Below are positions 35,175-51,715 of a DNA stretch of 51,715 bases, piece after piece. The translations under genes were made by a program, and so were the position numbers. Numbering within the stretch: position 1 is the first letter of the stretch; each line of letters opens with the position of its first letter. The DNA is from Kiritimatiellia bacterium (lineage in GTDB: Bacteria; Verrucomicrobiota; Kiritimatiellia; PWTM01): positions 1-51,715 of the forward strand of contig JAOACR010000006.1 in NCBI GenBank assembly GCA_026417735.1. Direction: 5' to 3'. The notes beneath the pieces were generated by a model. That model was not told where the DNA came from and did no database searches. It worked only from the letters and a program-made list of their open reading frames with translations.

Positions 35175-37484
35175 CTATCTGGGTGGGGGGACGCCAGCGG
35201 CGATCAGCTTCAGAATCCGTCGCGCAATCCGCCAGCGATGGATGTCAAATTCATCGGCGTCCCACAAGCCCTCGGTCTTGAAGCGCACAAGCGCGGGCAC
35301 CGCATCCAAAACTCCCTGCAGCTCTGCTTCCGCGGCGTCCGCAGCGCGGTGAGCCGCCGGTCCCCCGCATTCTCGCGCCGCGTCGATCAGATGTTGCAGA
35401 GTCGCGAGGTACCGCGCATCGTCCCAGCCCTCGCGATACGCCTCCCACAGTGCGACGGGGGTCGGCGTGCCGTCGGGCTCGCTGCGGTTCATGAAGTCCA
35501 TGTAGGGTCCGTCGAGATAGTTCCACGGATTGCCGACGTTGGCCTGGTAAATCCACGGGATCAGCGCCCGGTAGCCGCTACGATGGAAACCAAAACCATA
35601 GGTCATCCGGGCGCCGGCGACGGGGGTGTGATCGTTCTCACCCGCCACGTGGTTGGGGTAACACCAGTACTCGATGCCTCGCGCGCGGTCGGCGTGCACC
35701 CGGGAGGCCGGCACATTGAACGCCTGATAACACCACACATCCACCCACGGACGCAACGGTTCAAACGCGTCCGCGGTCGGATCAGCGGTCACATAGGTCC
35801 GAACGCCGGCGGCCTTGCAGGCGCGCAGCACGGTCACCATGAACTCGACCGCGGCGGGCTCGGTGGAGGGCTCGTCCACCGGATAGTACAGAAATTCCGG
35901 CCAGCCCCGTTCGCGCCGCCCCGCCTCGATGGCGCGCACCATCGCGGTGATTTCCTCCGCGAACGCGGCGGGGGGCCGCTCCACCCCTCGCAGATGGCTC
36001 CCATAAGTGCGGCCAGTGTGGCGACGATAGACCGCCTCCACCGGAAACGACACGACAAGCGGTCCACGAAAATCGTGCCGACGCCCGAGCTCGATCTTTT
36101 CGCCGAGCAGGTCCCACCGAATGCGGAACTCACCGCGTTCGTCCGCCGGTGACGCGGAGACGTGCAGCACAACGTTGCGCGTGCCGTGCGCTGCAATGTC
36201 GGCATGTTCCAGCTCCGCCTTGCGGCGCCAGTAGTTGCGAGAGATCGCGTCCGGTGCGGCGTCGGCCAGGTCCAACGGATGGCGGTAATAGATCGCATAG
36301 AGACGGTCCTTGGGCTCTCGCAGCCGAAACGGCAACACGCGCAGACGCACCGGCACCTCCGCCCGCGCGCCGCCCGCGCGGATCACGATCCCGCCCCGAT
36401 GTTCACCGGCGGGTGCGTCCTCCGGCACGTGCACCGTCGCCCACAGCCGGAGGTTTTCGCCCGCACGGAGTGACCGGGGCGCCCACCGCTCCAGCACATC
36501 AGGGACGACTCGATAGCTCCCAAACACCGAGTAGTTCGGCCGCGCCCGCATGTACCGCACGGACCGAAGCTCAATCCGCCCGGCCGGCACTGGCCCGATG
36601 CCAAGCGCCTCCGCTTCGATGCGTTCGAGGTCCCGCAGCGGCCGCACCACCACCGTGAAGGGCTCCAGCTCCCCCGGCGTCGCGAACAGCCGGATCTCCG
36701 GATCGAGCTCCTCACCCCGTGGTTCGCTGGCGGGATACACCGGTTCCATCCAGTGCCGGCTCCAGACTCGAAAGCCCCGCTCTCGCTCGTGCGGGCGCAG
36801 AGGCTCCACCTCACCCGGCGGTGGGGGCGGGTCCTCTCGCCAGCGTTCGCGCTCATGCGGCGGCAGGCCAAAGGTCCACTCGTAAACCTCTGCGAGCATG
36901 TCGCGCTCCGCAGCCGGATCGCCGGCCGGCCAAACCACCACCGCGTTCGCGATCCAGCGGTTTCTCGGCAGAAACCGGACCTCGAGGCCGTCCGGTCCCG
37001 CCACCGCATGCAGCCGCGTGAACCGAAACTCATAGATGCCGGCGACGATCACCCGCTGTGTCGCACCGCCCACCGCAAGATCAAAATCAAACACCCACGC
37101 GCGGTGCTGGGAGACACTGGATCCTGAGATGACCTCCACCTCGTACTCACCGGGCGCGACCGCGATGCGCAGGGTTGCCGCCTCCGTCCCCAGCAACGCA
37201 TCCTCCGTGATCGGACTCGTCCACATCGGCGGCGGTTCGGTGCGGCCGCGCGCAGGGTTCTCCACCGGCACCGCATGCCGCTGTACCACCGCGCGCAGGC
37301 CCGGTGCGTCCACCCAGCCCGCCAGGGCACCGTTCGTCCATCGGTCCTCCGGTGTGAGCCGCAGAAACCCTGCCCACACCTCTGAGGTTACCGCGCCGAG
37401 GTCCAACCCCACCCTCGCCGGCAATTCGGCGGCGATCGCCGGCAACACCAGCGCGGTGATGACCAACCACCGCGCCGGTCTCAT
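35175..37484 (-). CDS. Secreted DUF4091 / GH123-like glycoside hydrolase candidate
   Basis: A 769-residue protein from ATG 37484 (ATGA overlap with the upstream gene), with signal peptide RWLVITALVLPAIAAELPA. The N-terminal half is beta-rich, including a segment resembling a carbohydrate-binding or immunoglobulin-like domain (AGENLRLWATVHVPEDAPAG, then VPVRLRVLPFRLRE) that commonly precedes this catalytic domain. The C-terminal half is a TIM-barrel-like DUF4091 domain; FLYYPVDEPSTEP near residue 535 carries the Asp-Glu pair that corresponds to the substrate-assisted catalytic residues of GH123 enzymes. IEYWCYPNHVAGEN and YQANVGNPWNYLDGPY are further family landmarks. It is probably a periplasmic or secreted hexosaminidase-like hydrolase. 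It is last in a five-gene minus-strand run. Confidence 0.8.
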   Translation of the reverse strand: MRPARWLVITALVLPAIAAELPARVGLDLGAVTSEVWAGFLRLTPEDRWTNGALAGWVDAPGLRAVVQRHAVPVENPARGRTEPPPMWTSPITEDALLGTEAATLRIAVAPGEYEVEVISGSSVSQHRAWVFDFDLAVGGATQRVIVAGIYEFRFTRLHAVAGPDGLEVRFLPRNRWIANAVVVWPAGDPAAERDMLAEVYEWTFGLPPHERERWREDPPPPPGEVEPLRPHERERGFRVWSRHWMEPVYPASEPRGEELDPEIRLFATPGELEPFTVVVRPLRDLERIEAEALGIGPVPAGRIELRSVRYMRARPNYSVFGSYRVVPDVLERWAPRSLRAGENLRLWATVHVPEDAPAGEHRGGIVIRAGGARAEVPVRLRVLPFRLREPKDRLYAIYYRHPLDLADAAPDAISRNYWRRKAELEHADIAAHGTRNVVLHVSASPADERGEFRIRWDLLGEKIELGRRHDFRGPLVVSFPVEAVYRRHTGRTYGSHLRGVERPPAAFAEEITAMVRAIEAGRRERGWPEFLYYPVDEPSTEPAAVEFMVTVLRACKAAGVRTYVTADPTADAFEPLRPWVDVWCYQAFNVPASRVHADRARGIEYWCYPNHVAGENDHTPVAGARMTYGFGFHRSGYRALIPWIYQANVGNPWNYLDGPYMDFMNRSEPDGTPTPVALWEAYREGWDDARYLATLQHLIDAARECGGPAAHRAADAAEAELQGVLDAVPALVRFKTEGLWDADEFDIHRWRIARRILKLIAAGVPPPR

Positions 37485-38371
37485 CGCGGTGCCTCCCATG
37501 GCGAGGCCACAAATCGCACTGCCGCCGTCACCGCCTGCGTGCTGTCGGTCATGCGCACGATCCACTCGGCCGCTCCCTCGCCGAATCCACCAGGCGGCGC
37601 TGGCACGGAAAGCCGCCACGCGCCGCGGCCGAGCACCGCGGTCCGCTTCGCCAGTACCCGCCCCTCCCTCGCCACCTCGCAGATCACCGTCGCGGTCGCG
37701 CCGGGCCGCAGACCCGCCAGCCGGACACTACCGAGAACCGCGCGTGCATCGGCCCACACCCAGCCATGCCCGACTCGCGTCTCGACCACCGTCGGCTGCG
37801 CGTACCGCTCGAGCGCGATGGAGGCGATCCACACATCTACGCGCTCACCATGACGATACTCCGACTCAGCCACGTGCCATTGGATCCGTGCAACGTGCGC
37901 AAGGTCGGCGAGACGATCCAGGTCAAGCCACCAGTCCCGCCAGCCCGAATCGGCCGACACCGACCACCACTCCGTGTTCGCGGACGCCTTGTCCGGCGCA
38001 TACACCTGTACTCCCACCGCCCGTTCAGGCCAGCGCTCACGAGTGCCCTCCGCGCGCCAGCGCACACGCAACCGTTCCCATCCCGACCAGTCCCGCCATT
38101 CCGGCGGCAGCCGGATGCCAAAACGAGGCCAGCCGACCGGATATGCCGCCTCCCCCCCGTGGTGGTCCACCACCACTGACCACCGCAGCGTCGGTGCTTC
38201 GCCGCCGGCCGCGGGCTCCAACCGCACTGACGACTCCGCCGAATAGAGATGGCCGGTTGTCAGGTGAAGCGGGAGCTCGCGCCGTTCGAGCGTTTCCTCC
38301 GCGTCCGCGCACCGCGCGATCGCCGCCGCCAGCGACCACAGGGCAATCCGGCCAAGCCTGACCGATTTCAT
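37481..38371 (-). CDS. Exported hypothetical protein, likely beta-sandwich, paired with the DUF4091 hydrolase
   Basis: A 296-residue protein with a signal peptide (IALWSLAAAIARCADAEE). The body is rich in Trp, Arg and alternating beta pattern (WERLRVRWRAEGTRERW, WWLDLDRLADLAHVARIQWH), resembling a carbohydrate-binding sandwich of the galactose-binding type followed by a second small beta domain (about 190-296). I do not recognise a named family. ATGA overlaps join it to the release-factor-like gene upstream and the DUF4091 gene downstream. The pairing suggests an accessory binding protein for that hydrolase. Confidence 0.6.
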   Translation of the reverse strand: MKSVRLGRIALWSLAAAIARCADAEETLERRELPLHLTTGHLYSAESSVRLEPAAGGEAPTLRWSVVVDHHGGEAAYPVGWPRFGIRLPPEWRDWSGWERLRVRWRAEGTRERWPERAVGVQVYAPDKASANTEWWSVSADSGWRDWWLDLDRLADLAHVARIQWHVAESEYRHGERVDVWIASIALERYAQPTVVETRVGHGWVWADARAVLGSVRLAGLRPGATATVICEVAREGRVLAKRTAVLGRGAWRLSVPAPPGGFGEGAAEWIVRMTDSTQAVTAAVRFVASPWEAPR

Positions 38372-50512: not shown

Positions 50513-51696
50513 ATGAACCGGATCGGTCAGCGAAGTGGAATAATGGTGGCGTCCCTGCTGGCCGCGGCTGCAGTCATCGCCGCGGAGGTGCAAGTGCCGG
50601 AAATCGTGGTGACACCGGCGCGCGGCCCGGCCGCGCTGACGAACGTGACCCAGGCGGTCACGGTGCTGCAGGAGCGCGACGCCGAGACGATCGTCGCGCC
50701 AAAGGCGAACATTGCGGAGCTGCTGACCTGGCAGCCGGGCACCCGCGTGACCGTGCTCTCGCGCAACGACGCCAACTGGGGCTCGTTCGGCGGTCTCGGC
50801 CCGAAGTACAGCACGTTCATGCTCGACGGACTGCCAGTGGACGCGTTTGTGGACACACAGGCGCTCGACCCCTGGGCGCTGGACCGCGTGGAGGTGCAGC
50901 GCGGACCGGCGTCGGTGATGTACCCGAACTACCTCTCCCAGGACTTCGCCGGCAATCAGAGTCCGCTGTCCGGCACGGTGAACCTGATCCCCCGCATCGC
51001 GGCCACGGCCCCGCGCACACGGCTCGATGCGGCCTGGGGCTCCTACAACACCTGGCGGCTGCGCGGCGCGCACGAAAACCGCATCGGCCGCCTCGGCCTC
51101 GCCGGCGGCGCGTTCTGGGAGGACTCCGACTACACCAACTACGGCACCGAGAACTCCTGGCTGAACATGCTCGACGACCCCGAATACTCGAAGCTGCGAC
51201 TGTGGGCGGGCGGTCGCCTGGATCTCGACGAGGACGGGCGCCATGCGCTCTCCGCGTTCGGGAACTGGATGCACCACGAGGGCGACGCCGGCCGCCCGAA
51301 CCGCGGCTTTGACCACGAGTACCTGCTGGTGCAGGGTGGCTACGCCGGCCAGCTCGCCGATCAGGTCTCGCTGACGCTGCGCGCCGGCTGGCGCCGCTAC
51401 GACCGCACTTGGCAGGAGGACAATTTCTTCAACGGCGGCGACCTCTCGCTGGCCTCGAACAATGGCGTGGAACAGAATATCGTGCCGGCCGACGTCGCCA
51501 TCGCGTTCGCGCACGGCGAGGGTAGCCGACTCACGCTCGGCGCCGACGCGCAATGGGCCGACTATCAGACCTGGACCGACCCCGGCCAGCGCCAGATCGG
51601 CAACGACAGCCGGTCCAGCCAGTACGGACTGTTTGCACAGGAGGAGTGGCTGACGGGCCCGTGGGTGCTGCGGGGCGGCGCGCGCGTCGCCTGGAC
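50513..51696 (+). CDS. TonB-dependent outer-membrane receptor, 3' truncated
   Basis: The frame is open from ATG 50513 (GGGAGGT upstream) to the end of the window, giving about 394 residues before the adapter sequence begins at 51697. A signal peptide (IMVASLLAAAAVIAA) is followed by a TonB-box-like VPEIVVTPAR. The plug domain has IAELLTWQPGTRVTV, FMLDGLPVDAF and WALDRVEVQRGPASVMYPN, all diagnostic. The barrel begins at about residue 170 with strands such as RLDAAWGSYNTWRLRGA. At least half of the barrel is missing. The ligand could be a siderophore, cobamide, metal complex or oligosaccharide; the window does not decide. Confidence 0.93.
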
Positions 51697-51715
51697 CTGT
51701 CTCTTATACACATCT
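51697..51715. other. Untrimmed Tn5/Nextera mosaic-end adapter at the contig end
   Basis: The last 19 bases, CTGTCTCTTATACACATCT, are identical to the Tn5 mosaic end used in Nextera libraries. On the opposite strand it reads as the familiar spurious peptide start MCIRDR. It is not part of the genome, and any translation past 51696 is false. Confidence 0.97.

Follow-up and report, generated by a model that had tools for sequence, protein, structure and literature searches.

The interrupted receptor gene at the contig end

Examination of the right-hand end of the window, which is the entire contig C6 of the genome (G000:C6; 51,715 nt), revealed a gene coding for a TonB-dependent receptor that is cut by the contig end and followed by a terminal 19-nt sequence (Table 1). 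The genuine N-terminal part of the receptor shares 85% and 73% identity with the complete receptors of two congeners, G007 and G388, respectively. On the plus strand the terminus reads ...GTCGCCTGGAC followed by CTGTCTCTTATACACATCT, the latter occupying the last 19 positions. Its reverse complement, AGATGTGTATAAGAGACAG, is the exact 19-nt Tn5 mosaic end with 0 mismatches, in agreement with the original prediction, and the identical 19-mer is given as the mosaic end in a published description (PMC8269240). At this terminus the adapter consists of its mosaic-end portion only, without an A or B tail. No second match to the 19-mer with three or fewer mismatches was found within the window, and 100 shuffles of the window yielded 0 matches.

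The receptor frame had been predicted to stay open through the adapter, and it is indeed open to the last base of the contig, terminating in ...VAWT-CLLYTS. Immediately before the junction, the protein reads RGGARVAWT or RGGARLAWT in C6 and in the two relatives, and the relatives then carry on with the residues given in Table 1. The threonine codon ACC takes its third base alone from the adapter. Since this threonine is conserved in the relatives and its codon is mostly genomic, the false tail comprises six residues (CLLYTS). The spurious MCIRDR-type protein that had been anticipated on the other strand corresponds to a 60-amino acid open reading frame, antisense to the receptor, and a Pfam search with it returned no match even at E 1. 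At the nucleotide level, the 100 nt leading up to the junction are identical to the two congeners at 85/100 and 74/100 positions, against 7/19 and 8/19 across the 19-mer. Homology to the congeners ends exactly at 51696, and their receptor gene carries on.

Table 1. Features at the end of contig C6 and location of the mosaic-end copies in the genome.
Feature	Contig	Position	Strand	Evidence or remark
TonB-dependent receptor, genuine N-terminal part, ~394 aa, cut by contig end	C6	50513..51696	+	Pfam Plug PF07715, E 2e-13; congeners
False C-terminal tail CLLYTS of receptor frame	C6	51697..51715	+	Relatives: AHEIDRLGG.../GHDIDRLGG...
Spurious 60-aa ORF antisense to receptor, starting at the adapter's ATG	C6	51531..51713	-	No Pfam match (E 1)
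Tn5 mosaic end AGATGTGTATAAGAGACAG, Nextera/tagmentation adapter remnant, non-genomic (copy 1)	C6	51697..51715	-	Exact match; terminal in 3/3 genome copies; congener identity lost; contig end
Mosaic end, copy 2	C11	1-19	+	Contig start
Mosaic end, copy 3	C14	148519-148537	-	Contig end (C14 = 148,537 bases)

Copies of the mosaic end and the true neighbours of the affected contigs

The genome consists of 24 contigs totalling 3,094,483 bases (3.09 Mb), and an exact scan of all of them detected exactly three copies of the 19-mer. The screen of other contig ends proposed with the original prediction was thereby rewarded at the start of C11 and at the end of C14, both copies lying in adapter orientation. 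All three copies form the outermost 19 nt of their contig and are oriented so that their 3' end points into the insert; none carries an A or B tail, the contigs stopping at the mosaic end itself. No further copies were found in the genome at up to three mismatches, and a control with the reversed pattern across the genome gave 0 matches. Among the 48 contig ends inspected (C5 being masked), the other readable ends have at most 3 nt of the 19-mer terminus, which is the chance level.

Several pairs of other contig ends have exactly 141 nt in common, an overlap length characteristic of de Bruijn assembly at k = 141. Each of the three adapter ends has nothing but the adapter in common with any other contig end, so that in the graph these ends would be dead ends instead of branch points. 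The window itself (C6 1-141) opens with the same 141 nt as the end of C4, a branch node of the k = 141 assembly. The initial 24 nt of C10 are matched in C11, four bases short of its terminus, and may represent a join by an overlap shorter than k = 141.

A search of the genome with the C-terminal part of a relative's receptor gave one match, at C23:2-643, with 88% identity to G007. When the tail of C6 and the start of C23 were mapped onto each of the two relatives, the hole between them measured 186 nt both times, so that the two contigs are adjacent in the chromosome, of which the adapter is no part. The true chromosome runs from C6 across 186 nt into C23, with no mosaic end at this place. The contig does not carry on as genomic DNA through 51715: the relatives diverge at 51697 and the true continuation is C23. 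No transposon sequence occurs at the start of C23, which begins directly within the receptor gene. A second genomic copy of the C6 tail bearing the true continuation was also searched for, and none was found.

The reading frame that stays open through the 19-mer is what a natural chromosomal sequence, resembling the mosaic end by chance, might be expected to show. However, the composition of the window (70% GC) predicts about 1e-8 copies per window and 6e-7 per genome, against three seen, all terminal; the 19-mer has 37% GC in a contig of 70% GC, and homology to two relatives is lost precisely from its first base onward. A natural chromosomal origin is refuted by the genome scan together with the continuation on C23, and we assign it a vanishingly small probability.

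The other two copies also interrupt genes. The start of C11 lies inside a histidine kinase gene, to which the adapter gives a false tail ending in VSYTH; the remainder of this gene opens contig C7, and comparison with G007 puts the missing stretch between the two contigs at about 28 nt. The end of C14 lies inside a KDPG aldolase gene (TIGR01182), and there the ATG of the adapter (148519-148537) is in frame with the truncated aldolase, creating a false MCIRDR N-terminus (L003 882-1517, minus strand). A gene finder would call MCIRDRHGPPLARAL... for this aldolase, where the corresponding true N-terminus, as judged from the relatives, would read ...RAEDGPPLARAL. The warning about automated annotation was thus well founded, and it weighs more heavily at C14, where a genuine enzyme acquires an in-frame MCIRDR. 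As a partner for the C14 end, C1 was considered and rejected, the relative's upstream DNA matching C1 internally (36602-37817), and no partner was found among the contigs of the genome.

Origin of the terminal 19-mer and its consequences

Bases 51697-51715 are, almost certainly, the synthetic Tn5 mosaic end from a tagmentation (Nextera-type) library. An observation that counts against this origin is that all three copies lack the A or B tail. In favour of a real transposon end in the receptor gene, be it of a native Tn5/IS50 or of an engineered Tn5 with mosaic ends, the ends of Tn5 gave rise to the mosaic end. Against such an insertion, the hyperactive mosaic end is itself a synthetic hybrid of the Tn5 outer and inner ends. 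The native outer end differs from it at 3 positions and would have been picked up by the genome scan allowing 3 mismatches, which gave only the three terminal copies; the native inner end has a single match in the genome, with 3 mismatches, at C23:24128, far from contig ends. Moreover, the receptor continues on C23, which opens without transposon sequence, and three insertions all stopping exactly at contig termini are implausible. A real transposon end is consequently very improbable, and a genuine insertion of a mosaic-end transposon in the bacterium, for example in an engineered strain, is more improbable still.

For the tagmentation adapter, a plausible course of events would begin with a failure of coverage at the end of C6, the outermost reads presumably coming from a short fragment and running through into adapter sequence that was probably left untrimmed. 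Without a competing genomic path, the assembler may then have extended the dead-end path to the terminus of the mosaic end; given k = 141, about 122 genomic bases and the mosaic end would be expected together in one read or more. The exact stop at the last base of the mosaic end could reflect either a trimmer that took only the A or B tail, or a fork of the graph where the tails differ. If the adapter was read through in this manner, bases clipped at 51697 would read into CCGAGCCCACGAGAC or GACGCTGCCGACGA.

The adapter at C6 is an ordinary library artefact or clean-up error, not a biological feature, and it holds no biological novelty. Its value is practical only, namely corrected gene models and two contig adjacencies. 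Trimming 19 nt at three contig ends removes one false protein start (the aldolase), two false protein tails (the receptor and the histidine kinase) and the spurious MCIRDR/MYKRQ-type open reading frames. The assembly also improves when two pairs of contigs are recorded as adjacent, C6-C23 with its 186-nt hole and C7-C11 with one of about 28 nt.

Mosaic ends in public sequences

A scan of public prokaryote contigs detected at least 133 copies of the 19-mer in at least 119 stretches. Among the matches listed, 121 of the 133 copies face inward no more than 100 nt from a contig end, a Nextera A or B tail accompanies 103, and for 20 the sequence stops precisely with the mosaic end; the rest, again among the matches listed, mostly adjoin N gaps within scaffolds or bear an adapter tail. 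In one public contig of a Myxococcales MAG (L075 3073-3091), the mosaic end is situated about 1 kb from the contig end and no Nextera tail or N gap can be recognised on either flank, an arrangement suggestive of a chimeric join via the adapter. Viral contigs follow a similar distribution: 123 of 127 copies are equally close to a contig end and face inward, and 115 have a Nextera A or B tail. In a sample from the same phylum, 4 of 388 genomes, counting the one studied here, contain the 19-mer; the other three hold ten copies, all at most 35 nt from a contig end. The full Nextera adapter is present in phage records (41 for the B side, 26 for the A side) and in 9 plasmid records, plasmids having been searched for the B side only. 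No full B-side adapter was found in complete E. coli genomes (20,395 records, 28 Gb).

Some of these remnants have been translated into deposited proteins. An annotated gene of phage ESSI2_ev239 (VUF53723.1; L338 1333-1515, minus strand) includes the adapter-derived VYKRQ..., and the deposited terminase of Peduovirus P22H1 has the adapter-derived C-terminal part ...CLLYTSDAADD... (L336 around 1501). With adapter peptides present in deposited phage annotation, short CLLYTS, VSYTH, MCIRDR or MYKRQ ends shared between unrelated proteins should therefore not be taken for homology. No papers mentioning the MCIRDR or CLLYTSPSPRD peptides were found among the open-access papers searched.

The sequence at the end of C6 resembles the Nextera read-through remnants of other assemblies in that the same 19-mer is terminal, faces inward and interrupts genes at assembly gaps. 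In contrast to the usual remnants, the mosaic end stands alone at C6, with no A or B tail.
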